DNA of 53,171 nt from a virus, in IMG/VR virus record IMGVR_UViG_3300032308_000975, positions 1-53,171 of that record; one strand, 5' to 3'. Positions 3,131 to 51,421 of this stretch are shown here, piece after piece. Both the position numbers and the translations under genes were made by a program. Under the pieces are notes generated by a model. The model saw only the letters and a list, made by a program, of their open reading frames with translations. It ran no database searches and was not told the DNA's origin. Within the stretch, counting starts at the first letter, position 1. Each line of letters starts with the position of its first letter.

Positions 3131-3139
3131 ATTTGCTCC

Positions 3140-22734: not shown

Positions 22735-22760
22735 TTGTGTTAATCCAAAGGTGTATTGTT

Positions 22761-22768
22761 TATTTATT
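22761..22768 (-). promoter_or_regulatory. Late promoter-like motif AATAAATA
   Basis: Minus-strand AATAAATA directly after the terminator at 22771-22791 and 27 bases before the ATG at 22734. Transcription would start near 22754. Confidence 0.45.
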
Positions 22769-22770
22769 TT

Positions 22771-22791
22771 AAAAACGAGCTTACGCTCGTT
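22771..22791 (-). terminator. Rho-independent terminator at the end of the RNA candidate
   Basis: On the minus strand AACGAGC, loop GTAA, GCTCGTT, then further T bases: a perfect 7-pair stem with a GNRA-type loop and a U-run. It lies between the gene-free stretch and the start of the next gene. Confidence 0.8.
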
Positions 22792-23200
22792 TGCGTTATC
22801 GCTTACGCTCAACGCATTTTTTCTTTCTGGAAATGTTTTGTAAGATAACTGCGAAGCAGTTTTTAGCATTATCCAGATCGTTCAGTCATACTTAGCCCGT
22901 TGCCGGGCTAGATGTGAACATTATCCGAGTCGAACAAGTCATATAACAGTAGAGCATTACAGAGGCGGTCAGCCGGTACCTCGAGCTCCGTCTTAGATCT
23001 GACGGCGGACTAGATCTGCCTGTTATCGCAAACCGTAGTCGTGGGTTATTAACCCTCTTTTAGCCTTTAAAATCAATACTTTTTATTACAGTAAACCGGT
23101 TATAGGCGTATCCGATCGTCGTCCTGTCAAGGATAGTACTGTAGTTACCCTTCGCCAATTTAGGGGCCTTACCGTGCGACATCACCACGGATTTCGGGCA
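22771..23200 (-). ncRNA. Candidate structured non-coding RNA of about 430 bases
   Basis: No convincing gene fits between 22735 and 23234, yet the stretch holds many perfect stems. Minus-strand pairs: 23190-23186 with 23176-23172 (CCGTG/CACGG); 23143-23137 with 23093-23087 (TACAGTA/TACTGTA, enclosing TATCC/GGATA); GGGTT-AAT-AACCC near 23050; 23026-23020 with 22949-22943 (ATAACAG/CTGTTAT), enclosing CCGTC/GACGG (23005-22988); TAGCCCG-GCAA-CGGGCTA (22910-22893), nested in GTTCA/TGAAC; AACTGC-TTC-GCAGTT (22861-22847); TGCGTT/AACGCA (22816-22792); and the terminator. A TATAAT lies at 23208-23203. No tRNA, tmRNA or group I intron core could be made out. Orientation is inferred from terminator, -10 box and neighbours. 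Function unknown. Confidence 0.55.
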
Positions 23201-32858: not shown

Positions 32859-32867
32859 GGATTGAAT

Positions 32868-33305
32868 ATGGCAAAACTTTATAATAGAAAATCAGCAGTG
32901 AGTTTACAGGCCAGCGTAGGCGACGCTGAAGTAACTACTTTTACCTATAAGGGTTTTGATTCTAAAAATACAAAAAATAATTTCAAAGCCTATGATATAG
33001 ATCTAGTCAAGCAAGATCTAGTAAATCACTTTTATATTCGTAAAGGCGAAAAATTAATGCAGCCTGATTTTGGAACAGTGATCTGGGACGTGCTTTTTGA
33101 GCCGTTTACAGAAGAACTGAAAGAAATCATAACCAAGGACGTTGAAGCTATAATCAACTACGACCCTAGGATATCTATAAATTCTGTGACAATAGATAGC
33201 ACAGATCAAGGAATTAGGATCGAAGCCGAGATCGTTTACATACCGTTTAACGTGGTAGAACGCATGACTTTTGACTTCGATCGCAAGAATAACATTATTA
33301 ACTGA
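32868..33305 (+). CDS. 25: Baseplate wedge protein gp25
   Basis: I place the start at ATG 32868, seven bases after TAAGGA; a TTG at 32862 is also in frame. The protein has 145 residues and the gp25/GpW fold: IDLVKQDLVNHFYIRKGEKL, MQPDFGTVIWDVLFEPFTEE, and LKEIITKDVEAIINYDPRIS. The EPR-like core motif is replaced by DPRISINSV. gp25 sits at the core of each wedge and is among the most conserved parts of contractile tails. gp6 follows after a 45-base gap holding a late promoter-like motif. Confidence 0.93.
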   Translation: MAKLYNRKSAVSLQASVGDAEVTTFTYKGFDSKNTKNNFKAYDIDLVKQDLVNHFYIRKGEKLMQPDFGTVIWDVLFEPFTEELKEIITKDVEAIINYDPRISINSVTIDSTDQGIRIEAEIVYIPFNVVERMTFDFDRKNNIIN

Positions 33306-33350: not shown

Positions 33351-36300
33351 ATGACTACTACGTCAAGACAGACTAATTTAATACTAAATCAAGATTGGAC
33401 TCGCATCTATCAGACTTTTAAAAATGCGGATTTTAAATCTTATGATTTTGAAAACCTACGTAGGGTTATGATAACCTATCTCCGTGAAAACTATCCGGAA
33501 GATTTTAATGATTATGTAGAAAGTTCAGAATATCTAGCTCTAATAGATGCTGTGGCATTTTTAGGACAAAGCCTTGCTTTCCGTATCGATCTTGCCTCTA
33601 GAGAAAACTTTATTGAACTAGCAGAACGTAAAGAAAGCGTTCTTCGCCTAGCTAGAATGTTAGGTTATAACAGCAAGAGAAACATGCCAGCGATGGGACT
33701 GTTAAAATTTGACACAGTCAGTACTACAGAATCTATTTTAGACAGTAACGGCAAAAATCTCAGCCAACAGGTTGTGATATGGAACGACCCAACAAATGCT
33801 AATTGGTCAGAACAGTTTGTAACAGTTTTAAATTCTGCTATGGCTGACAGTATAGAATTTGGAAGACCGCAGGGCAAAGAAACTATAGCAGGGATTTCTA
33901 CAGAACAATATAGATTTAGAACAGCATCAACAGATGTTCCTGTGTTCGCTTTTTCTAAAACTGTAGCAGGCAGACAGATGGTATTTGAATTACTCAGTAC
34001 CACATTTAAAAATGCTGAAGAAATATATGAAGAACCACCAGTTCCTGGAAATCAGTTAGGATTCGTTTACCGCAACGACGGCAAAGGCGGGTCCAGTGCT
34101 AACACAGGTTTTTATCTGTTATTCAAACAAGGTAGTTTAGAATTAGCAGATTTCAATGTAGAAGCTCCTTCTACTAATGAAATAGTATCCGTAGATACTA
34201 ACAACATTAATGAAATAGACGTGTGGTTATATCAATTAACTTCGGCAGGAATCCAGACCACAGAATGGACTAAGGTTCAAAGTTTGGTAGGTAGTAACAT
34301 TGCCTATAATAGTATTAATTCAGATATCAGAACCATATATTCTGTCAAAACTAAAGAGAACGATAGAATCGATCTTTTATTTGCCGACGGAGTCTACGGT
34401 AATTTGCCACAAGGACCGTTCAGAGTCTATTATAGAATTAGCAACGGATTAGTTTATCAGATAGCCCCATCAGATTTGAGAGGCGTTACTATAGCCATAC
34501 CTTATATCAATAAACAAGGTGTGGCTCATACTCTAACAGTGACCATGAGTTTAAAATACACCGTTAGTTCGTCAGCAGCTAGCGAAACAGTTGATCAAAT
34601 TAGATTTAATGCTCCTGCTCAGTACTACACTCAGAATAGAATGATCACTGCGGAGGACTATAACCTTGCTCCGTTAACCAGCAGTCAGGATATCTTAAAA
34701 GTAAGATCTATTAATAGAGTTTCTAGCGGAATTTCTAGAAACTATGATATTATTGATGCCAGCGGAAAGTATAGTGCGGTAAATGTATTTGGCGACGACG
34801 GTCTAATTTATAAGAGCCAAACAGAAAGATCTTTAAGTTTTAAATTTATCAATAGATTTGATATTGTCAATTTTATTAGAAATAGCATTGAACCGCTTTT
34901 TACAGACACTGATGTTTATAACTTTTACCTCACAAAATATGAAAAAGTTTTGTTTTCAGATCAAAACACTATATGGAATTCGATAACTAGCGATGTAAAT
35001 TTATCTACAGGATATTTTATAAATGCTATAGATAATACTAACATTTTAAAAACCGGAACATATACTTCTAATACTTTGAAGTATGTAGTTAGCGGTTCTT
35101 TGATTAAATTTGTTCCTCCAACCGGTAAAGCTTTTAAGAAAGGAAAATTAGTAAACATTGATGCTACAGATCCAGATCAAAGAGATAGAATATGGACAAA
35201 AGTAGTAAAGATAGTAGGCGACGGAACCAATGCCGGTCGAGGAGTATTGGCCAACGGTTTAGGTGCAGTGCAGTTCAGTGATATTGTTCCTACTGGCGCC
35301 ATAGCGTCTAGAATTGTTCCGAAATTCGTTAATAATCTATCTAATTCTTTGGAATCAGAAATGGTTACATTGATGTTTTCAAACTTAAATTTTGGTTTAA
35401 GATATGATTATATCGAGGGAGACTGGAAATTAATAACTTCGGCAAACCTAAATTTAGTAGGAAACTTCAGTTTAGGTAAGGCCGGAGACAGCACAAATAG
35501 CAGTTTAGATTCATCCTGGATTGTAGCATTTGTTAAAATCGCCGACGAATACGTTATTAGAATTCGAGGTTTAGATTACATCTTTGGCAGTATAGAGCAG
35601 AATAGATTTTATTACGATTCAAATCGAAAAGTCTATGACAGTAGAACAGGGCAAGTTGTTAAAGATCAGATTAAAATTCTCAATATTAATTCTGACAATA
35701 CATTTTTAACATCACTAAAACAAGATATCACTTTTGAAATAGATGATTCAATCAAGTTCGACGACGGATATCAGAGTGTAGAGGAAGTTAAGATAGCTTT
35801 TTCAGATTCCGATGATGACGGAGTTATTGATAATCCTGAATCTTTCGAATTGATTGTTGGAACAGATGCAGCCTTAAATTATCTATTTTTCCAAGAAATC
35901 GTGGACGATCTAGGCAACAAGAAAAAGGTATTCATAGATAATACTAACGATACTATTTTGATTGAGCAGAAAGAAAGTTTAATTAATGTTAATAACTATG
36001 ATAGCGGACAATTAATTTATTTCTATGACTCGGAAGAGGACGTGGTTAAGGAAGTTAATAAGTCAACCAATACATTAGACATAAGACCAGATTATATAGC
36101 TGCGGTAGGAAGATCAAAATTAAAATTTCAATATATCCATACAGCAGACTCGGATCGACGAATAGATCCTAGTTCCAGTAATATCATGGACGTATATCTA
36201 TTAACAAGAAGTTATGACAGAGATTTTAGGAATTTTCTAGCCGGAGCAATTAGAAATAAACCCGAACCACCTAACAGCGATAGTCTAAGGATAAGTTTTG

Positions 36301-36764
36301 GTTCTAAATTAAATTCTATAAAGGCGATCAGTGATGAGGTTGTTTACCATCCTGTAGTCTATAAAGTATTATTTGGGCAAACAGCCGAACCTAAATTTCA
36401 AGCTACATTTAAGGTAGTTAAAAATCCTAATAAATTAATAAATGATAATGATTTAAAGGTAAGAATAGTTTTGGCTATAAATGAATTTTTTGATATAAAC
36501 AATTGGGATTTCGGAGATAGATTTTATGTCAGCGAGCTCATAGCATATATTTTGACAACTGTAGCCCCGGATATCAGCAACATAGTTTTAGTTCCCAAGC
36601 AGCCAGATCAGGTGTTCGGTAGTTTATTTGAAATTCAAAGTAGAGTAGACGAGATATTTGTTAGCGGTGCGACAGTAGATGATATATCAATAGTATCTGC
36701 AGTATCAGCAGCAGAAATACGTGTTAATGCGGATTCTGTAGTTTCAAATACAAATAACGGTTAA
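33351..36764 (+). CDS. 6: Baseplate wedge protein gp6
   Basis: An 1137-residue protein. The N-terminal region (FENLRRVMITYLRENYPEDF, YLALIDAVAFLGQSLAFRID, LASRENFIELAERKESVLRL, ARMLGYNSKRNMPA) is the conserved core of T4-type gp6, the dimer that forms the inner iris of the baseplate. The Baseplate_J-like part with ITAEDYNLAPLTSSQDILKV lies near residue 440. The C-terminal part (LINDNDLKVRIVLAINEFFD) also fits. It is far longer than T4 gp6 (660), with an extra beta-rich middle of about 450 residues. It stands between gp25 and the giant protein. Confidence 0.92.
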   Translation: MTTTSRQTNLILNQDWTRIYQTFKNADFKSYDFENLRRVMITYLRENYPEDFNDYVESSEYLALIDAVAFLGQSLAFRIDLASRENFIELAERKESVLRLARMLGYNSKRNMPAMGLLKFDTVSTTESILDSNGKNLSQQVVIWNDPTNANWSEQFVTVLNSAMADSIEFGRPQGKETIAGISTEQYRFRTASTDVPVFAFSKTVAGRQMVFELLSTTFKNAEEIYEEPPVPGNQLGFVYRNDGKGGSSANTGFYLLFKQGSLELADFNVEAPSTNEIVSVDTNNINEIDVWLYQLTSAGIQTTEWTKVQSLVGSNIAYNSINSDIRTIYSVKTKENDRIDLLFADGVYGNLPQGPFRVYYRISNGLVYQIAPSDLRGVTIAIPYINKQGVAHTLTVTMSLKYTVSSSAASETVDQIRFNAPAQYYTQNRMITAEDYNLAPLTSSQDILKVRSINRVSSGISRNYDIIDASGKYSAVNVFGDDGLIYKSQTERSLSFKFINRFDIVNFIRNSIEPLFTDTDVYNFYLTKYEKVLFSDQNTIWNSITSDVNLSTGYFINAIDNTNILKTGTYTSNTLKYVVSGSLIKFVPPTGKAFKKGKLVNIDATDPDQRDRIWTKVVKIVGDGTNAGRGVLANGLGAVQFSDIVPTGAIASRIVPKFVNNLSNSLESEMVTLMFSNLNFGLRYDYIEGDWKLITSANLNLVGNFSLGKAGDSTNSSLDSSWIVAFVKIADEYVIRIRGLDYIFGSIEQNRFYYDSNRKVYDSRTGQVVKDQIKILNINSDNTFLTSLKQDITFEIDDSIKFDDGYQSVEEVKIAFSDSDDDGVIDNPESFELIVGTDAALNYLFFQEIVDDLGNKKKVFIDNTNDTILIEQKESLINVNNYDSGQLIYFYDSEEDVVKEVNKSTNTLDIRPDYIAAVGRSKLKFQYIHTADSDRRIDPSSSNIMDVYLLTRSYDRDFRNFLAGAIRNKPEPPNSDSLRISFGSKLNSIKAISDEVVYHPVVYKVLFGQTAEPKFQATFKVVKNPNKLINDNDLKVRIVLAINEFFDINNWDFGDRFYVSELIAYILTTVAPDISNIVLVPKQPDQVFGSLFEIQSRVDEIFVSGATVDDISIVSAVSAAEIRVNADSVVSNTNNG

Positions 36765-36770
36765 AGATTT

Positions 36771-39700
36771 ATGGATAAAGATATTTTTCCAGAAAGTAAT
36801 ATTCCAGTACGTAGATCAAAAGATCTTCTGCCTGAAATTTTCAAGACAGAAAGTAATAATAAGTTTCTTGGAGGGTTAGTTGATCCTCTGATACAGCCCG
36901 GCGTACTAGACAAGAAAGTCGGATACGTTGGAAGAAGATATGGAAAAACATTTAGGTCTTCAGATGTTTATCTTGATAATGATCAAACATTAAGAAGCAG
37001 ATATCAATTAGAACCTGGCGTTATTGTAAGAAATGATGTCAATGTGGAAGGATTTTATGATTACATTGATTTTAAAAATCAATTAAAGTTTTTCGGTAAT
37101 ATCGAAGAGCGAGACGATCTAATTACCAGCCAGCATCATTATACTTGGAATCCTCCTATAGACTGGGACAAGTTAATAAATTATAGAGAATATTTTTGGG
37201 TACCGGACGGTCCTCCAGGAGTTAGGATACAAGGTCAATCTCAAAAAATCGTAAGCACATATAGGGTAACCTTGGGTGCTAATTCCTACATATTTTCTCC
37301 GGACGGACAAACTAATAATCCCACAATTACACTATATCGAGGACAGACTTATAAATTTAATCTTAATGTACCAGGAGATTTCTTTGTAATTCGTTCCAAT
37401 ATAGACACAGGTTCTTTAACATACAATCCTATCGTGGGATACCAAAAAGGACAAATAGTTCTATACGGGAATAATTTATATCAGGCACAGGGAAATGTTC
37501 CTATCGCCGGACTAAACGCACCTTTAGATACCACCAGCGGTATTTGGAAACTATTAGAAAATTTACAAGAACAAAAACAAGCTTTAGATTATGATCAAGG
37601 TGTGGTTAACAATCGTTCAGAGAAAGGCACTGTTATATTTGATGTTCCTTTTGATGCTCCCGATACCTTATTTTATCAAAGCTTGACTGATCCGAATAAA
37701 TTTGGTAAATTCGTCATTGATAGTGTAGAAAATAATACGAAAATAGATGTATCTAATGAAATATTAGGTAAAGCGGACTATCTCAGCAGCAACGGAGTAC
37801 AATTAAGCAACGGAATGATTCTAAGATTCGAAGGATTAGTTACTCCTGTAAAGTATGCTTCGGGTTCTTGGTTAGTTGAAGGTGTAGGAGAAGAAATAAC
37901 TTTAACAAAATTTTCTGATCTGTCAGTTTCACAATTATTAAGCACAATATCTCCAGAAATTTTATTTGACGACGGCGGATTTGATACTGCTCCGTTCGAT
38001 GATGCCGCGGCCTATCCTGCTGCTAAAGACTACATAACAATTTCAAAATCTAGCAAGGATTCAAATCCTTGGAGCCGTTATAACAGATGGTTTCATAGAT
38101 CGGTATTAGAATATTCGCATAATTTTAATAACAGCAATTTTGATTCGCCCGAATCGGCAAGAGCAAAAAGGCCGATTATAGAATTTAAACCTAATTTACA
38201 ACTATTCAATCATGGAGCTGTAGCCAAGCAAAGTGTGGATTATGTTGATGATTTTACTACAGATGTGTTTTCTTCTATTGAAGGCGCTGTTGGTTATAAT
38301 ATAGATAACGAAGAATTGTTCGAAGGTGCTCGATTATTAATTACAGCAGACACTGATAGATTAGTTAATAACAAAATTTATACAGTTAGATTTATAACAC
38401 ATAATAACCGTAGACAGATCTCGTTGATACCAACAGAAGATTCAGAAACGGCGCCGGGCGAATGCGTATTGGTACAAAGGGGTTTAACAAATAAAGGCCT
38501 AATGTTCAATTTTGATGGCACAAGATGGAACAAGAGTCAATTGAAAACAACAATTAACCAGGCTCCTTTATTTGATTTGTTCGACGAGAATGAAATAAGT
38601 TTTTCTAATGCGGAAACCTATCCTGTTAGTTCTTTCGCAGGATCGAAATTAGTATCCTATAAAACAGGTGTAGGACCTAACGATTCTGAATTAGGATTTC
38701 CTATCAGTTATCTTAACATAGACAATGTCGGTGACATTCAGTTTGATAATAATTTTGAACAAGATATTTTTACCTACAAAATTAATCGTGTAACTTTTTC
38801 TAAAAAGTTATCTTTGGGATATTTTAAACTTAATCTTGTTTCTGGGACACAATATTCTAATGGGTGGATTCCATTAGATAACACTTTTGTTCAGCCTATT
38901 ATCGAAACAGTAGTAGCAGAAGATTCAAACACCATAGAGTGCGATATTATAGATTGGGATGCCGTTAGTGATGAACAGATTAAAAAATTAGTAATTTACA
39001 AAAACGGTATTAGGTATGATGTGCCCTATACAAGAACAGTTAATCAATTTGTTTTTGAAAAAGATTTTGTTAAGGGCGATTCCGTAACATTTAGATTATA
39101 CGCCGACTTCGATCCAAAATTTGGTTATTATGAAATACCTATCGGATTAGAAAGGAACCCACTTAATAATGAAATTGACACATTTACACTAGGACAGGTC
39201 AATGATCACTTGTTGTCGGCTTTAGATTTATTTGACGATTTTGAAGGAATTTATCCAGGGCAAAATAACCTAAGAGATATATCCGGATATCAACCCTTAT
39301 GCAGAAGATTTGTGAAACATTCGGGATTATCTCCTTTAGCTATATTATTATTGTGCGACAAGCAGGTTAATATTATAAAGTCTATACAATATTCTAGACG
39401 GGAATACACAGATTTTAAAAATAATTTCATTAAATTATCAGATGAAAGATATACAGGACAAACTGTAGTTGAACTAGTAGATGAAATATTAGAAGAAATG
39501 GGCAGAGCTAGATCTGCTGCTAATTCTTTCTCTAATTCAGACATGGTAGGTAGCGGAGCCTATACAACCATAGAATATCAAGTAGAGGACGAGGGAATTA
39601 AAACATTTGCCTTGTCTTCTAAATTTGATTTGAATACATTGAGCAATAAAGCGGTTTATGTTTATATTAATGGTCAACAAATCTTACACGGTAGAGATTA

Positions 39701-42700
39701 TGAATTTAACTCTATATTCGGTTTTGTTAATATCAAAGCTTCTGTAATAGAAGGAGATAAAATCGAAATCCGTGAATATGTTACAACAGGATCTTCATTT
39801 ATTCCACCAACGCCTACTAAATTAGGGCTTTATAAAAAGTACACTCCAAGAAAATTCTTAGATGATACTTATAGAATTCCAAAAGAAGTTATTCAAGGAC
39901 ACGATGGCAGCATCACTATTGCCTACGGTGATTTTAGAGACGATGTTTTATTAGAATTAGAGCACAGGATTTATAATAACATCAAACAAGAGTATGATGA
40001 AACATTATTTGATATTGACGCAGTGCTTGGTGGATATTACGACACAGGACTATTCAATAAAAAACAAGTTGATAATATTGTCAACAGAGATTTCTTATCA
40101 TGGATATCAGGAACTACCACTGATTATGTAAACAATATCTATTTTGACAGCGAGGATAGCTATACCTATACCTATTCTAACATGACAAACATAGAGGGCA
40201 CGAAAGCCTTGCCAGGATACTGGAGAGGAGTGTACCAATGGTATTATGACACAGATCGACCACATCGTTGTCCTTGGGAAATGTTAGGTTTTTCGGAAAA
40301 ACCAGATTGGTGGGAAGAACAATACGGCGCTGCTCCTTACACTAGCGGCAACTTGCTATTATGGGAAGATATTAGAGACGGAATCATTCGTCAAGGCGCT
40401 AGATCGGGAACGTATCCTAGATATCAAAGACCTAGTATCCTAAGTCATTTACCAGTTGACGGTGACGGAAACTTGTTAAGTCCCTTAGATTCTGGATTGG
40501 CTGCGAATTTTTCTCTGATTAATAATCAAGGTAGATTTTTTCTAGGGGATGTTAGCCCTGCGGAATATGCTTGGAGATCAAGTTCTGAGTGGCCTTACTC
40601 GATATTGACAGTGCTTTGTTTGTTAAAGCCTTTCGAATTCCTAACAGATAATTTTATTAAATCATCGGTAAGAAATAATAAGCTAGGTCAAACAGTAGAC
40701 AAAACCAGCGGCCTCTTTACAAGAATAGAAGATATAACTAGAGATGATTTTGATCATCTCAAGAGTTCTGGTTTGTGTAGGTTCGTTATAGATTATTTGA
40801 AAGGTACTTCAACTCCAACATCTATTTTAGCTGATAAGATTAGTAGATTGGATGTAAATCTTTCTTATAGAATGTCGGGGTTCGTTGATCAACAACAGCA
40901 AAAATTTATATTAGATAGTAAAAATCCTAAATCGCAATCTAGCAGTATTTTTATTCCAGTAGAAAACTACGATATTATTTTTAATGTTAGTAGCCCTATC
41001 GGCAGCATAACATATAGTGGAGTTATAGTAGAAAAAATCGACAGAGGATTTAAGATGTCGGGATATGATGCCTTAGATCCGTTCTTTGAATATTATCAGC
41101 CAGTGGCGAGCCAGCAGGATCCTTTGATATCTATAGGAGGAGTCAGCGAAAATTTTGTTGAATGGAACGCAGAAAAATTTTATAACAACGGAGTAGTTTG
41201 TAGATATAATAGCAATTTTTATAGAGCACTTAAGAGCCATACCAGTGGAGATACTTTTGATTTATCAGCTTGGAAACAACTACCGGCTCTGCCAAAAGTA
41301 GGATCTATTGATGCTTTTAAGAGGAAAAATTTTAATAAAACTAAAACCAAGATTTTAGTTTATGGAGAAATATTACCGGATGTTCAATCAGTAGTAGATT
41401 TCTTTTTAGGATATGAAGAATTTTTAAAATCTAAAGGGCTAGTATTTGATGGATATAATATAGAGACACAAAGCCCCAAAGATTGGTTTACATCTGTAAA
41501 AGAGTTTATGTATTGGACCAAACATAATTGGGATGTTGGTTCACTGATTACTTTTAGTCCTATAGCCGATAGAATAGAGTTTAATATTCAAATAGGTGTA
41601 GCTGACAATCTTTTAGACAGCTTCTACGGGTATCAAGTTTTAAAGAATGACGGCCTGCCTCTTCGTCCTGAATTTATTAATGTTACTAGAGATTTTCAAA
41701 AATTAGTTGTCAGTACTACCAACACCAACAACGGGATTTATTTCTTTAAAGGGCATTTAGTTCTTAAAGAACATGTAACTGTATTTGATGATCGAACAGT
41801 TTTTAATGACGTAATATATGATAAACCTACAGGGTATCGACAAGAGCGTATCAAGAGTCGAGGGTTCCGCACAGTTGATTGGGACGGAGACTATACCAGT
41901 CCCGGATTCTTGTTTGATAATGTTAATATTGATGTTTGGCAACCCTTCACTGATTATAAATTAGGGGATATAGTTGCTTATAAATCTTTCTATTGGACGA
42001 GCCAGACTAATCAGTTAGGATCAGAAGAGTTTAACGATACACTATGGACCAAACTAGATTCCACACCGCAGAAAGGTTTGATCAGTAACTTTGATTATAG
42101 GATTAATCAGTTTGAAGATTATTACGAAGCAGATGCCGACGGAATAGGATCTAGCCAAAGAGATCTATCCAGACATTTGATAGGGTATCAATCTAGAGAT
42201 TATCTACAACAGCTAGCAGAAGATCAAGTTAGTCAGTTTAAGCTATATCAGGGATTTATCAGAGAAAAAGGTACGGCCAATGCTATAGTCAAAGTATTTG
42301 ACAAATTAAGTGAATCCTCAGACGACAGCATAGTGCTTAACGAGGAATGGGCATTCCAGGTTGGAAATTTTGGAGGCACTGACCAAACTACAAGATTTGA
42401 ATTTGAAATTAAAAAAGATGAGTTTGAAATTAATCCGCAGCCAATATTCATAACATTATCAGAATCGACCGGCCCCGAAGTAGATCAGTATGTAAGGATT
42501 CCATTTTCTAAGTTTACATTGTCTCCTAACCCTTTCACGACTAATTTAAATCCGGTATCGGAATATGACAAATTAAACAGATCTGCTGGATATGTTAGTT
42601 TCAACGATGTAGATTATACGATTAAGAATAGAGACGATTTATTAAACTTTGACATAAACACAGTCAAAGAAAACTCTTTGTTCTGGGTCACGTTTGACTT

Positions 42701-45700
42701 AAATTCGTGGACGGTGATCAAATATAATGAACCTCCCACATTGAGGATCATTTCAGTATCTGCAGTAGACGAAGCAAATAAAATTGCACGAATTACCTTT
42801 AATTCACTGCATACTATTGCTGTTGATGATATAATCGGTATTAGAGATGTATCCGAGCTCACAGGATTTAGAAAAGTGGTAGCTCGAGGAAAAACCTATG
42901 TTGATGTAAAATATACGGCAGTTAAGCCCGAAATGGAAGATAGTACATCTGCAGCTGTTGGAATATTTTCAGATGTACGATACACTTCTTATGACGACAT
43001 CGACGAAGAATATATCGCAGCATCCGGTAGCGGAACTAAATTTTGGATAGATGACAACAGCACCGGAAAATGGACAGTCATAGAAAAAGTTAGACAGTAC
43101 TCAAACATTGATTTAGTCAACTACGGAGTAACGAATCCTATAGGTCTGGGCTCGGCAGTTGTTTATATTGAAAACTTAAAACAGGTAGTAGCAAATTTAA
43201 CAGCCTCGGGTTATGTGTTAGTTTATACAGAAAGCACAGATTCGATGAGACTAAGACAGATTATTTCTCCTCCGTCGGGTTTCGAAGCCGCACTACTAGG
43301 CTGCTTCGGCGAAGTTTTAACAGTCAGTCCTGATTATAGGTTTTTAGTGATAGGATCTCCTCTGGCTAGCGGAGTAAACAGTAGATTTAGAGGAAATCTA
43401 AGATTAGATGTTCAGTATGTTCCAGACGACATAGTTTTCTATCAAGATAAAACCTGGAAAGCAGTTAACGATATTCCTAGTTATGACGGAAGCTCGATAG
43501 ATTTTGCTTCAGAAGATTGGACTCCCGCTACCATAATAGAAGCAGTTTCTAATGGAGTGGGTACAGGATTTGCCGAGCAGGGGATGGTATCTGTTTATCG
43601 TTATGCAGATAACAGATGGGAAAATACTGTAAACATTCTCAGCCCGAGACCGTCTCAGGGAGAACACTTCGGTAGTGATATATCTATAGGTGTTTCCGGC
43701 AGCACATATTACATGGCTGTGTCTGCTAAAGATTCTATGGGAGGAAAAGGCAGAGTATATCTATTCTATTACACTGGAACGGAATGGAAACAGTTAGAAA
43801 ATCCTAATTACGCTGGAATTTATTCTACAGTAGAAGCTGTACCATATCCCATCGGAACTATCGTATGGGATGAAGATTTTCTTTGGGAAGCAACAGCTAA
43901 TCAGCAAGGCGCAGCTACCAAACCTAGCGACAGCGTTAGCGGTTGGAAAAAATTAGATCCTGTATCTACAGATTGCTCTTTGCCTAATATAATTTCAGTA
44001 GCAGACGATGACGGTTCTACTTTGATGTCCGGTATATTAACAGCAGACCAATTAGCCGAAGCAGTTAAAGAAGGTGATCAGTTCGGATTCGAAACCGCTA
44101 TGAACTATGATGGTTCTATTTTAGTAGTAGGAACTCCTAACAGCGACGGGCAGTTTTACAATAATTACAAAGGTTTATACAAGTCTTATCAAGAATATAA
44201 ACATGGAGATGTGGTAAAATCTGATGACAACTATTATAGATTAGGATCACCCGATTCTACCGTAGATTCGACGAACGCCATAAAGGGAGTGGATCCAGCA
44301 TCAGGAGAACCTTGGTTTAATATCACAGATTCTACTCCTACAGGTCGTACAGGAAAAATTTATATCTATAAGAGAACTGGTTCTCTATTCTTGTTAAAAC
44401 AGATAATTACGGCAGATAACTTAGCAGACTATAGCGATTTACCAGCAGGTGATACAATAGAGATAGGAGATCTGTTTGGATATTCTGTTGATATAGATCC
44501 TTCAGGAGCAACGATAGCAGCCAGCGCCCCTAGAGCCGACCTCGGAGGTCAGACACAGGGAGTAGTTTACATATTTGAAACAGCTAGTACAGAAAGTATA
44601 GAATATAGATTAAAACAAAAGATACAAAGTTTTGAAGAATACAATAACGAATTCTTTGGATCAAAGATCAGAATCAGTCCAGGATTAGAAAAAATCGTAG
44701 TCGGTGCTAAGAATGCAGGATATACTCTGATCACAGGGTTTGAAGCAGGTACAACTTTTGATAGAAATAAAACAAGATTTTCAGATTCTCAAGGATATCC
44801 AGGACAGGTGTATGTTTATGAAAACAAAGCTGGAAAATATCTGCTAACAGAAAAACTTGAAACAGACTTTGTTCGTAATGAATCTTTTGGTTATACTTTA
44901 GACTGCACTAGATCTACGATAGTAGTAGGTTCACCTAACTATAAACTCGATAATGAACGAGTCGGAAAGGTAAGATTATTTAGAAAGGTGTCGGGTAGCA
45001 GTAGCCTTAAAACTTTAGCCACACAACAGCCTTTAATCAATATAGATCTGTTAAAAAATATTGAACTTTATAATATTGACGATCATACAAGAATAGCAGA
45101 ATTAGATATTGTTGATCATTTTAAATTAAAGATATTAAATGTAGCTGAACAAGAATTATCTTTCAAGGTACCTTATGATCCTGCTTTCTATGATAAAGGT
45201 ACAGAGGAAGTAACCGTTGATGCTTCTCAGCCTTGGTATGAAAAGAATGTAGGAAAATTGTGGTGGGATCTCAGCACAGTCAAATTTAACTATTACGAAC
45301 AAGGTGACGATGCCTATAAGATAGGCTATTGGAATTCGCAATCTATAGGATCCTCGGTGGATGTCTACGAATGGATCGAATCAGTATTGCTGCCCTCAGA
45401 ATGGTCTATCTTAGCAGATACTACAGAGGGATTAGCAGAAGGTATATCCGGACAGCCGAAATATCCCAACAATTCAGTTTACAATACTAAACAAATTTTT
45501 AATCCTAATACTGGACAAGAAGTTGGGACCAAATATTATTATTGGGTAAAAAATAAAACCACTTTACCTTCTTTCGAATTAGGAAGAAGAATGCCGGCTG
45601 CTTCTGTAGCAGATATGATTAATAATCCAATTGGTTCAAATATTCCGTTTATTTCAATCATAGCTGCTGATAAATTTTTAGCTTATAATATTAGAAACAT

Positions 45701-48700
45701 TTTGACAACAGATAGAACTCTATTAAATGTTGAATATAATAAGGATCCTTCAAAATTAAATTTAGCACATAATGAATATCAGCTGCTTACTGAGGGAGTT
45801 TCTTCGAGCAATCCTACAGAGTATTTAGAAAGGAAATGGATTGACAGTTTAATAGGGTTCGACGAGGCAGGAAATTCAGTACCAGATCCTAAATTAGCTG
45901 AAAATCAAAAATACGGTTTACGTTTTAGACCTAGACAAAGTATGTTTGTTGATAGGATCAAAGCGATAAAGATAGTGATCGACCGTGCCAATAATATATT
46001 GGCCAGCAAACCGTTTTCTGATCTAATAGATCTTTCAAATTTTAATTCTAAAGATCCTTTACCGTCAAAACCTTTAAATGCTTTTGACTTTGAAGTAGAC
46101 GATTATGTTGATCTACTTCAAGTTGGAGTTGTGAGAGTAAAACAAGCGGTGTTTAGGGCTAATATAATTAATGGAAAAATTGATACCATAGACATTGTAG
46201 ATCCGGGTTTTGGTTATAGAAATGCTCCTTTTATAGAAATTGAAGGAACAGGATCGGGAGCTACAGCAGAAATAACCGTAGACGCTCAGGGAAGAGTTAA
46301 TTCTATTACTGTTACTAACAAGGGCAGAAAATACACCTTCGCTAATATTAAAATCAGACCTTTCTCTGTACAGGTTATTTCGGACTCCACAGCCGACGGA
46401 AGATGGAGTATCTATTCTTGGGATCAACAGAGGAAAATATTTTACAGAAGTAAATCTCAGGCCTATGACGTTTCTAGATATTGGTATTATATAGATTGGT
46501 GGAAAGATGGATATGATGAGGATTCTCGTATCGTAAAAGAAATCAATAATTTTTACGAAGAAAGCTACTATATTATCAAAGAAGGGGATCTATTACGTGT
46601 AAAAGAATATGCCAGCGGCGGATGGGCGGTATTTAAGAAAACAGCTCCAGGACAGGGAGAAGTGTCCGGAGACTATCAATTAGTAGGCAGACAAAATGGT
46701 ACTCTGCAGATCTCCTCTTCAGTATACGATACAAGCTCTGCTGCTATAGGATTCGATAATGTAGGAACATTCGATTCTGATCTGTACGATCTTCAGCCAG
46801 CTAGGGAATTGAGAATATTATTGAAAGCGATCAAAGAAGATCTTTGTGTAGAAGATCTTGCTGTAGAATGGAATAATATGTTTTTTGCCTCAATAAGATA
46901 TTCATATTCAGAACAGGATTTTATAGACTGGGCATTCAAAACTAGCTTTGTCAGCGCAGTGCATAATGTCGGGCCATTATCTCAACCTGTAAATTATACT
47001 AATGATAATCTTTTAGCATACCAAACATATATCGAAGAAGTAAAACCTTTTAGAACAACAATTAGAGAATATACCAGCAGGTATACAAAGATAGAAGGAA
47101 CAGGGTCTGCCGTATCGGATTTTGATTTACCGGCCGATTATTCGACAGCAGCCGAACTGATACTACCGATAAGGGGCTCGTTTGATAAGACTGGTCAGTA
47201 CCCCTGGCAGTATTGGTATGATAACAATGGTTATTCGATCGTGAGAATCGATGTATCTGATGCCGGCGGAGACTATACTAACCCACCTAAAGTATTGATA
47301 GAGGGCGACGGAACAGGTGCTACTGCCCGAGCATTCGTATCTAGCCAGAGGGTATCGGGCATAGAAGTTTTAACTGCAGGCGAAGGATATAAAACTACTC
47401 CAACAATTTATCTAGTTGGCGGAAACGGGACTTCGACCCGGATCGCTAAAGCAGTTGCCATTCTGGGCGATACCAAAGTTCGATCATTCAATGTTGGAAT
47501 GAAATTTGATAGAATAAGCAAATCAGGAATATTCCAAAACTTCCAACAAACCCAAACATTTGTAGCTACGGGATTAACATCTGTATTTGATTTAAATTAT
47601 CCTCCTACAAGAAATAAAGATAGAATATCAATTAAGAAAAATAATCAAACGGTCCTGAACAGCGATTATAATATATCACTGTTTAGTGTTTATAACGATG
47701 CTTATACTGTACCTAAAGGTAGATTAATTTTTAATTCATCACCGATAGCCGGAGATGTTATAGAAATAACCTACGACAAGAATACCTTAATACTAGATAG
47801 CGTAAACAGAATAGATAGATTCTATGCTCCTATGCCGGGGATGAAAGGCAAGGAAAAGAATCAACTTATGACAGGTATTGATTTTGGTGGAGTACAAATA
47901 CAGGGTACAACATTTGATGTTACCGGGGGCTGGGATGCTCTTCCTTGGTACGTGGACAGTTGGGACAGCGTAGAGTCTAGCGCAGATTATTATTACATCG
48001 CCGACGGCAGTACCACATTTATCGTGTTACCGTTTACACCTAAAGAAGGTGAAATATGGACTATCTACCTTAAGAGGTTATCCGAAAGTAGACCTACAAG
48101 GATCGATGATCCTTATTGGGGAAAGTATGACGGGTCAACAGTACAGCCCAACGGCAGAGTAACTGCTCCTAAAAATGCTCGCATGCCGACAATAATAGGG
48201 GACGGTTCTACTAATGTCGTAGAGCTACGGGATTCTGTAACAGATTTAGCATATGTTGAAGTTGATGCTGGAGATACATTAATATTTAGACCAGTTGAAA
48301 GCGACGGATCTGTTGTTATCACAGATGTTAATCTTTTAGATACACGTATTAGTGGGGGATCTTTATCAGCAGCAGCAGGTGCTTATCAAACAGCCACTGG
48401 TTTAACTCCCGAGGAAATAATAATTTCCGGTGATAAGTTTATCAGTCCGGATCAGGTTCCTGCTCCTGAAGAAAACGTTCCTGGACAAATACTCGACAGT
48501 TTAAGCATCAAAGTCTTTAATTTAACTAATGAAGCTGGTATACCTTTACAATCTAAAGTTGTAAGGAGTGATGGAAATACATTAAGGTATGATATTGGAT
48601 TAAAAGTTATAGAAAACAATTCAGTTGCTGTTTATGTTAATAAAATTAAACAGGAACAGAATGTAGATTATGAAGTTGATTTGGCAACCGACACTGTGCT

Positions 48701-50741
48701 TTTCCTATATCAGACTAATGATGGAGATCTGATAGAAATTGTATCTATCGGAATAGGTGGGGTTGGAATCTTAGACTATCAAGAATTTACAGCAGATGGA
48801 GACACTAATTTATTTTTAACAAATTCATTGTTTAATCAAACCGATGCTATTTTTGTAACAGTGAATGGGGAACAGTTCGACGTAGAATTTATAGACAGTT
48901 CTACAGTAATAGACAGACAAAATAGAACGATGGTACAGTTCGGAACCCCGCCAGCCCCCCAGTCGATTATTAAAATATTAACATTTGGATTCCACGATAC
49001 TGATGTCTTTGGAGATGCGCCATTGATTAGGATTAATCAACAGATTTTCTTTTTCGATGGAAGTACAAATTCATTCTCATTGGATAATTTTGTAGATCTA
49101 AATAGAAATTCTAAGGAAGCTCCAGTATTAGTAGAAATTAATGGATCAGCATTACAGGGATTAGACACTACCTACATAATCTACGATGGAACCAACAACG
49201 AAATTACAGTCGGTATAGATCCAGAGGAATCGATCGGTGCCATCACATCCGGAGAATTGAAAATTTATGTCAATAATGAACTGAAACGTTTCGTTCTTGA
49301 TTATGTGTATAACGGTAATGCTAATCAGGTTATAATTCCACCATCTAATCTAGTTGTTGGGGATATCATAAAAATTGAAAATAGTTTCCGATCAAAATAT
49401 AACATTAATCAAGGAAATTTAACTATAGCTCCCGAAGTGTTTAATAATTTACAAAGAAACGACGATAGCACATTAAAGGATGTTATAAAAATTACCTGGT
49501 TCAGCGAATATCCTAGTCTCGATTTGATAGCTGACGAATATACAGGCGGAAAGGTACAATACAAATTACCAAGAAATCCTTTAGCTATAGATTATGTTTG
49601 GGTATATAAAAATGGTATTCGTCTAACTCAAGACAAGGATTATACCTTATCTTTACCTAGGGGAGTTTTATATCTTGTTAACGGATCCTCTAATGCCGAT
49701 ATAATTAAAATTATCATATTTGGTAATAGGCCTTATCGATCACCTAGAGCATTTGAGATATTCAAGGATATGCTTAATAATGTACATTATAAGAGATATT
49801 CTAGAAACAAAGATATTAAATTATCTAAGGATCTAACTTATTTCGCCGATCAAATAGAAGTAACCGATGGTAGTTTATTAGCTGATCCTATTCCTAATAG
49901 AAAAATACCCGGAGTCGTGTCTATCAATAACGAGAGAATCGAATATTTCGAAAAGATCGGGAATATACTTTCAAAATTAAGAAGGGGAAGTCTTGGAACG
50001 GCTATCGCAGAACTCCATTCTGTAGGCAGTTTTGTTGTTGACGTTGGAGCCACTGAAACTCTTCCTTATGCGGAATCACAGGAAAGGATTGATTTCACTA
50101 CAGCATCAACAATCAATCTTATACCGGACGGAACTTCTAGAACGTTTGAGAATTTAGAGGATTTGTATCTTGGATATGGAAATAAACGTGACATATCTGT
50201 TAAAATCAACGGAGATTTAGTTAATCCCGATTACTACTTAGTAGACACAGATTTGGGCACTTTGAGATTCGTTGACCCGATTCAATTGGCAGAAACAGAT
50301 ATCGTCACTGTTACGCCTTTGCTTGTAGGTCCTTTAGATTTTGTTCCCCTGGAAAGAAGAGATTCTCAAGGAAATTCCTTAGAATTTTCTTATAAAGAAA
50401 CTATTCCAGATAATTATTATCCTTGTGATCAATTTGAAGTGTTCAAATCGGGTACTAGATTAAGGAAAAATCCTATAGCGGTTTATCAAGAAGAATTAGG
50501 ATTGACTAGTCCGCAGGCTGATATAAATCTAGAAGCAGAATTTTCTGTAGATGGATCTGCTGCTTATATAAGATTGACGGAAGAAGCAGCGCCGGGAACA
50601 AGAATTACTGTGATTAGAAGACAGGGTAATTTATGGTATGAAAGAGGTGAAAATACTGCTAGTAGAGGTATAACTCTGCTTGAAAATACTACACCTATAG
50701 CAGAATTTATTTTTCAAAAGGGCTCAGAATTGCCCGAATAA
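36771..50741 (+). CDS. Giant baseplate-associated protein in the gp7 position (4656 aa)
   Basis: One unbroken frame of 13,971 bases, 6 bases after gp6. N-terminal residues 1-140 (MDKDIFPESNIPVRRSKDLL, then WNPPIDWDKLINYREYFWVP) look like a virion anchor. At least six segments match small carbohydrate-binding modules with the pattern Y..G..V.y....Y.a....W..l, near residues 217, 1462, 1720, 2212, 2354 and 2470. Six FG-GAP repeats (for example GDQFGFETAMNYDGSILVVG and GDLFGYSVDIDPSGATIAAS), at about 2174-2724, suggest an integrin-like beta-propeller; three binding modules lie between its blades. Two related repeats with GTGSGATA and GDGTGATA lie near 3137 and 3492. T4 gp7, the largest wedge protein, has 1032 residues. 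Role in baseplate periphery and glycan binding is inferred. Confidence 0.85.
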   Translation: MDKDIFPESNIPVRRSKDLLPEIFKTESNNKFLGGLVDPLIQPGVLDKKVGYVGRRYGKTFRSSDVYLDNDQTLRSRYQLEPGVIVRNDVNVEGFYDYIDFKNQLKFFGNIEERDDLITSQHHYTWNPPIDWDKLINYREYFWVPDGPPGVRIQGQSQKIVSTYRVTLGANSYIFSPDGQTNNPTITLYRGQTYKFNLNVPGDFFVIRSNIDTGSLTYNPIVGYQKGQIVLYGNNLYQAQGNVPIAGLNAPLDTTSGIWKLLENLQEQKQALDYDQGVVNNRSEKGTVIFDVPFDAPDTLFYQSLTDPNKFGKFVIDSVENNTKIDVSNEILGKADYLSSNGVQLSNGMILRFEGLVTPVKYASGSWLVEGVGEEITLTKFSDLSVSQLLSTISPEILFDDGGFDTAPFDDAAAYPAAKDYITISKSSKDSNPWSRYNRWFHRSVLEYSHNFNNSNFDSPESARAKRPIIEFKPNLQLFNHGAVAKQSVDYVDDFTTDVFSSIEGAVGYNIDNEELFEGARLLITADTDRLVNNKIYTVRFITHNNRRQISLIPTEDSETAPGECVLVQRGLTNKGLMFNFDGTRWNKSQLKTTINQAPLFDLFDENEISFSNAETYPVSSFAGSKLVSYKTGVGPNDSELGFPISYLNIDNVGDIQFDNNFEQDIFTYKINRVTFSKKLSLGYFKLNLVSGTQYSNGWIPLDNTFVQPIIETVVAEDSNTIECDIIDWDAVSDEQIKKLVIYKNGIRYDVPYTRTVNQFVFEKDFVKGDSVTFRLYADFDPKFGYYEIPIGLERNPLNNEIDTFTLGQVNDHLLSALDLFDDFEGIYPGQNNLRDISGYQPLCRRFVKHSGLSPLAILLLCDKQVNIIKSIQYSRREYTDFKNNFIKLSDERYTGQTVVELVDEILEEMGRARSAANSFSNSDMVGSGAYTTIEYQVEDEGIKTFALSSKFDLNTLSNKAVYVYINGQQILHGRDYEFNSIFGFVNIKASVIEGDKIEIREYVTTGSSFIPPTPTKLGLYKKYTPRKFLDDTYRIPKEVIQGHDGSITIAYGDFRDDVLLELEHRIYNNIKQEYDETLFDIDAVLGGYYDTGLFNKKQVDNIVNRDFLSWISGTTTDYVNNIYFDSEDSYTYTYSNMTNIEGTKALPGYWRGVYQWYYDTDRPHRCPWEMLGFSEKPDWWEEQYGAAPYTSGNLLLWEDIRDGIIRQGARSGTYPRYQRPSILSHLPVDGDGNLLSPLDSGLAANFSLINNQGRFFLGDVSPAEYAWRSSSEWPYSILTVLCLLKPFEFLTDNFIKSSVRNNKLGQTVDKTSGLFTRIEDITRDDFDHLKSSGLCRFVIDYLKGTSTPTSILADKISRLDVNLSYRMSGFVDQQQQKFILDSKNPKSQSSSIFIPVENYDIIFNVSSPIGSITYSGVIVEKIDRGFKMSGYDALDPFFEYYQPVASQQDPLISIGGVSENFVEWNAEKFYNNGVVCRYNSNFYRALKSHTSGDTFDLSAWKQLPALPKVGSIDAFKRKNFNKTKTKILVYGEILPDVQSVVDFFLGYEEFLKSKGLVFDGYNIETQSPKDWFTSVKEFMYWTKHNWDVGSLITFSPIADRIEFNIQIGVADNLLDSFYGYQVLKNDGLPLRPEFINVTRDFQKLVVSTTNTNNGIYFFKGHLVLKEHVTVFDDRTVFNDVIYDKPTGYRQERIKSRGFRTVDWDGDYTSPGFLFDNVNIDVWQPFTDYKLGDIVAYKSFYWTSQTNQLGSEEFNDTLWTKLDSTPQKGLISNFDYRINQFEDYYEADADGIGSSQRDLSRHLIGYQSRDYLQQLAEDQVSQFKLYQGFIREKGTANAIVKVFDKLSESSDDSIVLNEEWAFQVGNFGGTDQTTRFEFEIKKDEFEINPQPIFITLSESTGPEVDQYVRIPFSKFTLSPNPFTTNLNPVSEYDKLNRSAGYVSFNDVDYTIKNRDDLLNFDINTVKENSLFWVTFDLNSWTVIKYNEPPTLRIISVSAVDEANKIARITFNSLHTIAVDDIIGIRDVSELTGFRKVVARGKTYVDVKYTAVKPEMEDSTSAAVGIFSDVRYTSYDDIDEEYIAASGSGTKFWIDDNSTGKWTVIEKVRQYSNIDLVNYGVTNPIGLGSAVVYIENLKQVVANLTASGYVLVYTESTDSMRLRQIISPPSGFEAALLGCFGEVLTVSPDYRFLVIGSPLASGVNSRFRGNLRLDVQYVPDDIVFYQDKTWKAVNDIPSYDGSSIDFASEDWTPATIIEAVSNGVGTGFAEQGMVSVYRYADNRWENTVNILSPRPSQGEHFGSDISIGVSGSTYYMAVSAKDSMGGKGRVYLFYYTGTEWKQLENPNYAGIYSTVEAVPYPIGTIVWDEDFLWEATANQQGAATKPSDSVSGWKKLDPVSTDCSLPNIISVADDDGSTLMSGILTADQLAEAVKEGDQFGFETAMNYDGSILVVGTPNSDGQFYNNYKGLYKSYQEYKHGDVVKSDDNYYRLGSPDSTVDSTNAIKGVDPASGEPWFNITDSTPTGRTGKIYIYKRTGSLFLLKQIITADNLADYSDLPAGDTIEIGDLFGYSVDIDPSGATIAASAPRADLGGQTQGVVYIFETASTESIEYRLKQKIQSFEEYNNEFFGSKIRISPGLEKIVVGAKNAGYTLITGFEAGTTFDRNKTRFSDSQGYPGQVYVYENKAGKYLLTEKLETDFVRNESFGYTLDCTRSTIVVGSPNYKLDNERVGKVRLFRKVSGSSSLKTLATQQPLINIDLLKNIELYNIDDHTRIAELDIVDHFKLKILNVAEQELSFKVPYDPAFYDKGTEEVTVDASQPWYEKNVGKLWWDLSTVKFNYYEQGDDAYKIGYWNSQSIGSSVDVYEWIESVLLPSEWSILADTTEGLAEGISGQPKYPNNSVYNTKQIFNPNTGQEVGTKYYYWVKNKTTLPSFELGRRMPAASVADMINNPIGSNIPFISIIAADKFLAYNIRNILTTDRTLLNVEYNKDPSKLNLAHNEYQLLTEGVSSSNPTEYLERKWIDSLIGFDEAGNSVPDPKLAENQKYGLRFRPRQSMFVDRIKAIKIVIDRANNILASKPFSDLIDLSNFNSKDPLPSKPLNAFDFEVDDYVDLLQVGVVRVKQAVFRANIINGKIDTIDIVDPGFGYRNAPFIEIEGTGSGATAEITVDAQGRVNSITVTNKGRKYTFANIKIRPFSVQVISDSTADGRWSIYSWDQQRKIFYRSKSQAYDVSRYWYYIDWWKDGYDEDSRIVKEINNFYEESYYIIKEGDLLRVKEYASGGWAVFKKTAPGQGEVSGDYQLVGRQNGTLQISSSVYDTSSAAIGFDNVGTFDSDLYDLQPARELRILLKAIKEDLCVEDLAVEWNNMFFASIRYSYSEQDFIDWAFKTSFVSAVHNVGPLSQPVNYTNDNLLAYQTYIEEVKPFRTTIREYTSRYTKIEGTGSAVSDFDLPADYSTAAELILPIRGSFDKTGQYPWQYWYDNNGYSIVRIDVSDAGGDYTNPPKVLIEGDGTGATARAFVSSQRVSGIEVLTAGEGYKTTPTIYLVGGNGTSTRIAKAVAILGDTKVRSFNVGMKFDRISKSGIFQNFQQTQTFVATGLTSVFDLNYPPTRNKDRISIKKNNQTVLNSDYNISLFSVYNDAYTVPKGRLIFNSSPIAGDVIEITYDKNTLILDSVNRIDRFYAPMPGMKGKEKNQLMTGIDFGGVQIQGTTFDVTGGWDALPWYVDSWDSVESSADYYYIADGSTTFIVLPFTPKEGEIWTIYLKRLSESRPTRIDDPYWGKYDGSTVQPNGRVTAPKNARMPTIIGDGSTNVVELRDSVTDLAYVEVDAGDTLIFRPVESDGSVVITDVNLLDTRISGGSLSAAAGAYQTATGLTPEEIIISGDKFISPDQVPAPEENVPGQILDSLSIKVFNLTNEAGIPLQSKVVRSDGNTLRYDIGLKVIENNSVAVYVNKIKQEQNVDYEVDLATDTVLFLYQTNDGDLIEIVSIGIGGVGILDYQEFTADGDTNLFLTNSLFNQTDAIFVTVNGEQFDVEFIDSSTVIDRQNRTMVQFGTPPAPQSIIKILTFGFHDTDVFGDAPLIRINQQIFFFDGSTNSFSLDNFVDLNRNSKEAPVLVEINGSALQGLDTTYIIYDGTNNEITVGIDPEESIGAITSGELKIYVNNELKRFVLDYVYNGNANQVIIPPSNLVVGDIIKIENSFRSKYNINQGNLTIAPEVFNNLQRNDDSTLKDVIKITWFSEYPSLDLIADEYTGGKVQYKLPRNPLAIDYVWVYKNGIRLTQDKDYTLSLPRGVLYLVNGSSNADIIKIIIFGNRPYRSPRAFEIFKDMLNNVHYKRYSRNKDIKLSKDLTYFADQIEVTDGSLLADPIPNRKIPGVVSINNERIEYFEKIGNILSKLRRGSLGTAIAELHSVGSFVVDVGATETLPYAESQERIDFTTASTINLIPDGTSRTFENLEDLYLGYGNKRDISVKINGDLVNPDYYLVDTDLGTLRFVDPIQLAETDIVTVTPLLVGPLDFVPLERRDSQGNSLEFSYKETIPDNYYPCDQFEVFKSGTRLRKNPIAVYQEELGLTSPQADINLEAEFSVDGSAAYIRLTEEAAPGTRITVIRRQGNLWYERGENTASRGITLLENTTPIAEFIFQKGSELPE

Positions 50742-50749: not shown

Positions 50750-51421
50750 ATGGATGATAAAGAAGACAAAAAAATGGCTCCAGAAACTGAAAATCACGTA
50801 GAAAATACGAAAAAACGCCCCGACGAACAGTCAGGATTCCACTTTGAGGGTCACATTAAGATTTTTGATCCCCAGTCCGGACAGATTTTTATTGATAAAA
50901 GAAATGCCATACACTACGAAAATATGAGTGTGGCAATGGCTAATAGTATCAGTAACCAGGGCAAAGGAACGTTCTATGAAATGGTGTTTGGCACAGGCGG
51001 AACAACAGTTGATCCTACCGGGTTGATTACCTATCTCACACCAAACACTATAGGAATTAATAGTAATCTTTATAATCAAACTTTTAGAAAAGTAGTGGAT
51101 CAGAGTGCTGTTGAAAACATCGATCCTGTCAGAAATAAAATGGAAATCAGGCATGTTAGTGGCGCTACTTATACAGATGTATTAATTACCTGCCTGTTAG
51201 ATTACGGTGAACCTGATGGACAGGATGCTTTTGATAACAGTCAAGACATGGATGGGAATTTTGTTTTTGACGAACTGGGAATTAAATCTTATGATCCAAG
51301 CGGCAACGGTAAATTGTTGACCCATGTGATCTTTCATCCGATCCAGAAATCATTGAATAGATTACTGCAGATAGATTATACGATTAGGATCCAGAGTTTA
51401 ACTGGATTTAATGAGGTTTAA
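50750..51421 (+). CDS. Virion structural protein (223 aa) between giant wedge protein and fiber
   Basis: A 223-residue protein. The first 30 residues are charged and poorly ordered; the ordered part begins at GFHFEGHIKIFDPQSGQIFI. Then come YENMSVAMANSISNQGKGTF, an FGTGGTTVDPTG loop, and a C-terminal beta part with GKLLTHVIFHPIQKSLNRLL. There are no enzyme motifs. By order it stands where T4 has gp8-gp11, baseplate parts that link wedges and fibers, but no homology can be claimed. The start is either ATG 50750, without a good ribosome site, or ATG 50774, which fits the promoter at 50738. It ends two bases before the collar fiber. Confidence 0.65.
   Translation: MDDKEDKKMAPETENHVENTKKRPDEQSGFHFEGHIKIFDPQSGQIFIDKRNAIHYENMSVAMANSISNQGKGTFYEMVFGTGGTTVDPTGLITYLTPNTIGINSNLYNQTFRKVVDQSAVENIDPVRNKMEIRHVSGATYTDVLITCLLDYGEPDGQDAFDNSQDMDGNFVFDELGIKSYDPSGNGKLLTHVIFHPIQKSLNRLLQIDYTIRIQSLTGFNEV

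Follow-up and report, generated by a model that had tools for sequence, protein, structure and literature searches.

The gene at positions 36771-50741 (+) of the window, which is the whole viral IMG/VR record IMGVR_UViG_3300032308_000975 (53,171 bases), encodes one of the giant virion proteins that form a known family in T4-related jumbo phages, as judged by sequence homology. It carries six small modules resembling CBM family 5/12 (ChtBD3) and a predicted FG-GAP beta-propeller of integrin shape, set between conserved blocks. We give an even chance to the reading that the propeller with its CBM-like modules is an adhesion head built into a giant wedge-region protein. The length of the protein is ordinary for its clade, and its anatomy looks new.

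The gene is a single intact open reading frame, as the first-pass annotation of the window had it: it opens with an ATG six bases past the stop of the preceding gene and runs without an internal stop for 4,656 residues (calculated mass 524 kDa), and its product matches phrog_10938 (E = 0, 1043.6 bits). It ends a plus-strand baseplate row. Before it stand a wedge gene matching phrog_7145, two virion genes, of which one is named as baseplate hub and tail lysozyme, a gp25-like wedge gene (32862-33305, +) with matches to phrog_261 (E = 4.4e-17) and phrog_43 (E = 6.3e-17), each bearing the name baseplate wedge subunit, and, directly upstream of the giant gene, a gp6-like wedge gene (33351-36764, +; phrog_10646, E = 6.9e-297; phrog_219, E = 1.4e-19). 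Downstream follow a gene for a 223-residue protein (50750-51421, +; phrog_11259, E = 6.2e-68) and a tail collar or fibre-like gene that runs off the contig (51424-53169, +; Pfam Collar, E = 5.9e-19; phrog_523). Among the genes tested, those for the major head protein and the portal lie on the minus strand. That strand also holds a 627-residue open reading frame (20986-22869, -) with no PHROG match at E ≤ 0.001, within the most GC-rich 2-kb block of the window (0.464).

Placed after gp25 and gp6, the giant gene corresponds in position to T4 gene 7; the first-pass annotation had likewise put the protein where T4 has gp7. The gene position bears this out, but sequence homology does not: over 45 segments the best match to a six-member gp7 profile reached 2.2%, whereas the gp6 control, the window gp6-like protein against the T4 gp6 family, gave 73%. 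Equivalence with T4 gp7 is positional only, and gp7, which likewise follows gp6, has 1,032 residues against 4,656 here. P2 gpI is the wedge partner of gpJ/gp6, and a KGT...EEW motif of the giant (residues 1829-1861; 42255-42353, +) resembles it at a probability of 12%, which is not significant. The three best of 60 segments in that comparison cover the motif, the gpJ control against the gp6-like profile failed (0.8%), and Pfam gave no P2 gpI match in any of nine members searched, so the resemblance is only a lead.

Ten named relatives had their giant homologues aligned with the window protein and the annotation around them examined. All ten have BLASTP matches to it across conserved blocks, and their homologues span 3,323-4,555 residues (Phosso 4,555, Atu_ph07 4,449, PA5oct 3,857, SCTP-2 3,807, Vibrio 2.275 3,771, GAP32 3,341, CBB 3,340, XbC2 3,339, RaK2 3,326 and 121Q 3,323). 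The giant directly follows a gp6-like gene in nine of the ten. In eight, the annotation calls the neighbouring upstream gene baseplate wedge; that of Vibrio 2.275, not so annotated, matches the window gp6-like protein (35% over 699 residues), and that of SCTP-2 (9.3 kb; record positions 139271-148561) shows no match to the window gp6-like protein in the part covered (L006, 1-5914). By tblastn, the first 2,999 residues match 58 phage records and the last 1,857 match 62; all of the best 40 of the 58 N-terminal matches, and 38 of the best 40 of the 62 C-terminal ones, come from genomes of at least 284 kb. The phage XacN1 is absent among the best 40 listed matches of either query; it has a 9.9-kb hypothetical-protein gene right after its baseplate wedge gene (L102, 14961-24902).

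The core of the protein is encoded at no fewer than 598 places in viral contigs, as counted with one core pattern. From these we took 80 loci and added four found with a propeller query; two of the 84 (L014 and L021) are the same contig, and 73 of the 84 core segments are distinct. The unusual length of the reading frame is the one point in favour of an assembly artefact or a decaying fusion, an explanation that is almost certainly wrong and that the relatives refute: all 84 loci have an open frame of more than 800 residues at the match, and among the 33 frames with both ends inside the locus, 30 are 4,452-4,787 residues long (the other three 3,123, 3,825 and 4,049), which makes the length of the window protein ordinary for its clade.

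Virion presence rests on two relatives analysed by mass spectrometry, PA5oct and phAPEC6. The giant homologue of PA5oct, gp355, has ESI-MS/MS noted in its record annotation. In the virion proteome of phAPEC6, the hypothetical protein gp245 (381.88 kDa) is supported by 17 unique peptides and the adjoining baseplate wedge protein gp244 (131.18 kDa) by 21, and the capsid protein is identical to that of 121Q (PMC7247149). Since the 121Q homologues calculate to 381.87 kDa (giant) and 131.21 kDa (wedge), gp245 is very probably the homologue of the giant. The giants of the RaK2/121Q/PA5oct/Atu_ph07 type share with the window protein the gp6-like gene upstream (nine of ten) and homology over large parts of residues 1-1900 and 2760-3480.

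The conserved core (residues 1005-1900; 39783-42470, +) and a second block that resumes past the propeller (residues 2761-3480; 45051-47210, +) both have BLASTP matches in all ten named relatives. Between them lies a slot of very different size: it measures 861 residues in the window (1900-2760), 213-216 in the RaK2/121Q group, 276 in Vibrio 2.275, 329 in PA5oct, 517 in SCTP-2, 1,535 in Phosso (L005, 10960-15564) and 1,542 in Atu_ph07 (L003, 18894-23519). Among 56 environmental relatives the slot also has the lowest identity to the window of seven blocks compared, with medians of 0.35 (residues 1900-2107) and 0.44 (2108-2751) against 0.61 for the core (1021-1900); the comparison excludes the last 216 residues, which align poorly. 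Judged by these sequence comparisons, the slot behaves as a site for exchangeable domains. Sequence searches detected no FG-GAP in the eight named-relative slots searched with Pfam and no blade in any of the ten with a blade HMM; the slots of these relatives may hold a degenerate propeller. A candidate lectin in the RaK2 slot (Laminin_G_3, E = 0.073) fell below the cut-off and was rejected. Against the PDB, the whole giant protein gave no sequence match at E ≤ 0.1; two matches of the 1790-1900 block (E = 0.22 and 1) were taken as chance.

In the window, the slot is predicted to fold as a seven-bladed, integrin-type FG-GAP propeller (residues 2108-2751; 43092-45023, +). AlphaFold2 modelled residues 1900-2780 from 48 sequences with a mean pLDDT of 83.2 and a pTM of 0.80, and the model shows seven four-stranded blades in a ring, with strands assigned by hand. 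When VIA-align re-aligned 968 of the best Foldseek chains, the 50 entries listed were all integrins (Z 34.2-38.0), the best at Z 38.0 and 3.0 Å over 359 residues (model 209-844, that is, residues 2108-2743); the best 50 Foldseek rows comprised 42 integrins (best E = 2.9e-11) and eight other propeller-like structures. An integrin-like propeller, as proposed in the first-pass annotation, is what structure prediction returns. The count of six FG-GAP repeats in that annotation holds for the sequence: a blade HMM from which the window was left out recovers six (12.6-28.1 bits; the best score among 220 shuffles was 3.5). The predicted structure has a seventh, the first blade, which lacks the FG motif. 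An earlier blade HMM from 29 seeds gave only three clear blades and was replaced. The profiles of the six blades are related to one another (80.6-98.7%; controls 0.5% or less), and Pfam FG-GAP_2 matches residues 1900-2780 with 55.1 bits (cut-off 23) and all 48 aligned members at E ≤ 0.01. The propeller was checked in these 48 members, against at least 598 places that share the core.

Integrin alpha chains carry calcium-binding loops of the DxDxDGxxD type in several blades. Residues 1900-2780 of the window protein contain no such motif, and five of the 48 members have a strict one. The window propeller further matches Pfam FG-GAP_2 rather than FG-GAP and is 14-19% identical to integrins in the rows listed. 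Residues 2108-2751 are therefore predicted to form an FG-GAP propeller of integrin shape and not an integrin; the likeness lies in the predicted seven-bladed fold and in the domains inserted in loops of the face that bears the I domain.

The first-pass annotation had counted at least six small CBM-like modules, and six are found by an HMM made from relatives with the window left out: M1 (residues 207-269; 37389-37577, +; 29.2 bits), M2 (1453-1512; 41127-41306, +; 63.8 bits), M3 (1717-1769; 41919-42077, +; 56.9 bits), M4 (2201-2262; 43371-43556, +; 48.4 bits), M5 (2347-2400; 43809-43970, +; 23.1 bits) and M6 (2464-2530; 44160-44360, +; 31.7 bits). The best of 220 shuffled proteins scored 6.0 bits and one further window match -4.2 bits. 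An earlier HMM from ten seeds clearly gave only two modules and was replaced. Pfam CBM_5_12, run on the whole protein, scores 31.9 bits (cut-off 26.2), with its match in M2. In profile comparisons, 13 of the 15 module pairs reach a probability of 90-99.7%, the others being M1-M6 (72%) and M1-M3 (13%), and the module profiles reach at most 17% against four control segments.

The CBM fold claimed for these modules is borne out in M2 by a second structure model (residues 1380-1900), in which about 1404-1670 are well predicted, the M3 region (about 1730-1769) is moderate (block means 66-82) and the KGT block is poor. M2 matches chitin-active enzymes at Z up to 7.3 over about 45 residues and the ChiA1 chitin-binding domain (1ed7) at Z 5.1. 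All M2 structure matches are under Z 8, with Foldseek E values of 0.04 or weaker, as expected for so small a domain. M2 is common to PA5oct, Atu_ph07, Phosso and SCTP-2 and absent from the five RaK2-group phages and Vibrio 2.275; none of the ten named relatives has M3, a clean insertion of about 50 residues. These relatives have zero to two modules at 8 bits or more, against six in the window; the slot of Atu_ph07 has one weak match (11.3 bits). Six is also the usual number among 49 environmental proteins of at least 4,400 residues (six modules in 33, seven in eight, five in three, four in four and two in one). CBM5/12 matches also occur in two stretches of the gp6-like protein of Vibrio 2.275 (L007, 1560-5423; E = 3.5e-14), suggesting a module that moves from one wedge protein to another.

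Three of the modules sit in the propeller. In a four-stranded antiparallel blade, one face has the 2-3 and 4-1 loops and the opposite face has the 1-2 and 3-4 loops. The predicted model puts two modules in 2-3 loops, M4 in that of blade 2 and M6 in that of blade 4, and M5 in the 4-1 loop that leads from blade 3 to blade 4, so all three are on one propeller face. Three CBM-like modules between blades had been proposed; this applies to M5, while M4 and M6 are within blades 2 and 4. Among the 48 members, which are related and whose loop counts are thus not independent, these three loops hold 133 of the 140 module matches (47, 41 and 44 members); four members account for the remaining seven, in the 1-2 loop of blade 3, where the alignment is least trusted. 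One of the 48, L091, matches FG-GAP_2 and has none of the three propeller modules, which makes these look as though they were added to a frame that stands without them. Blade 3 of some relatives also has large additional insertions in its 1-2 and 3-4 loops, and the effect of face on loop-length variation, measured over 27 loops, is weak (P = 0.08 in 48 members; P = 0.025 in the 36 closest); we dropped a general claim that insertions favour one face.

Taken as an adhesion head, the arrangement could work as follows. The conserved blocks (about residues 1-180, 420-1900 and 2760-3480) probably help to complete the baseplate wedge beside gp25 and gp6, a role we infer from gene order and the virion proteomics of relatives. 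The propeller would be set into this scaffold, with its 2-3 and 4-1 loops carrying the three CBM5/12-like modules on one face. The same loop face binds the ligand in integrins, where the I domain is inserted into it. In the giant, this face, if exposed, would present the small modules to host-surface polymers near the baseplate. The T4 baseplate has six wedges, and with that number a virion would carry about six propellers and 36 modules. In a further-reaching form, the propeller would be the primary receptor-recognition head, its binding mechanically coupled to baseplate triggering without a separate fibre and the content of its fixed loops exchanged to follow host surfaces; we regard this form as unlikely.

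One observation speaks against sugar binding. At the position of ChiA1 Trp687, the chitin-contact residue, alignments to 1ed7 and among the modules show the tryptophan kept in none of the six window modules: M2 (Phe1496), M3 and M4 have Phe there, M1 has Thr, M5 has Asp and M6 has a gap. In relatives, Phe occupies it in 51 of 56 cases for M2 and all 56 for M3, and an aromatic residue is found in 13 of 57 for M4, one of 42 for M1, one of 49 for M5 and three of 54 for M6. The better candidates for binding of the known kind, should any module bind sugar, would be M2 and M3, which lie outside the propeller. With Phe or a non-aromatic residue in place of the tryptophan, in modules embedded in a phage virion protein, the likeness to CBM5/12 is one of Pfam match and predicted fold. 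This makes a serious rival of the idea that the propeller and modules are structural docks, which anchor tail fibres or adjacent wedge proteins in a large baseplate without binding any host ligand. The fold of M2 matches phage baseplate and fibre chains (Milano 8fqc, Z 7.4; 7-7-1 9rkv, 6.9; A-1(L) 8kec, 5.2; KP1 9f4a, 5.1) about as well as it matches chitin-active enzymes. M2 and M3 lie in the best-conserved part of the protein and are present, by segment length, in all 57 aligned proteins, as expected of structural elements. However, the propeller slot varies in sequence and insert content, which is unusual for a buried structural part, and the lack of any detectable FG-GAP blade in the ten named relatives also counts against docking, to which we assign somewhat less than an even chance.

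Alternatively, the modules could attach virions to chitin or other environmental particulate polysaccharide rather than to the host cell itself. CBM5/12 is a chitin-binding fold, and the window encodes a 963-residue protein (15625-18516, -) whose C-terminal part matches endolysin and chitinase families, but the canonical aromatic is missing in three of the six window modules and rare in M1, M4, M5 and M6 of relatives, and we consider this explanation quite improbable.

Viral FG-GAP propellers are not new as such; many are recorded in giant viruses and phages. Atu_ph07 has a stand-alone integrin-like haemagglutinin of 393 residues (A0A2L0UZX4) with an FG-GAP-type propeller, and the AP-J-162 report describes gp213 as similar to human integrin and lists, in a table, a 4,455-residue structural protein after the wedge protein (PMC11242549). 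The propellers of Atu_ph07 and AP-J-162 are separate proteins, whereas that of the window is a domain within a wedge-region giant. Among open-licence PMC articles, searched by titles and abstract starts, we found no paper that describes an FG-GAP propeller within a baseplate protein of a phage; PMC7824862 does not mention propeller, FG-GAP or baseplate.

The annotation of giant structural proteins in jumbo phages often says no more than virion structural or hypothetical protein. Here, one of them is given an anatomy that can be tested: a conserved scaffold with a single slot, filled in this clade by a predicted integrin-type propeller that bears modules at three fixed loops of one face. An exposed module face would mean a new kind of host recognition for a contractile phage and a new use of the FG-GAP fold, and a buried one would show CBM-like folds turned into tail building blocks. 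Either outcome would aid the annotation of the many related metagenome genes that share the core.

Elsewhere in the protein, residues 4441-4500 (50091-50270) are aligned over half their length in none of the 56 environmental relatives, some of which end before this point, so a window-specific insertion is only likely. Two stretches of Gly-rich GxGY-type repeats were noted: one (46080-46442; residues 3104-3224) matches domains of several phage families (phrog_438, phrog_460 and phrog_1922), and the other (47226-47570; residues 3486-3600) matches several places in the Phosso and Atu_ph07 slot. The C-terminal third has five matches to a DGxT motif at about 48003-49280 (residues 3745-4170), perhaps tandem fibre-like domains.
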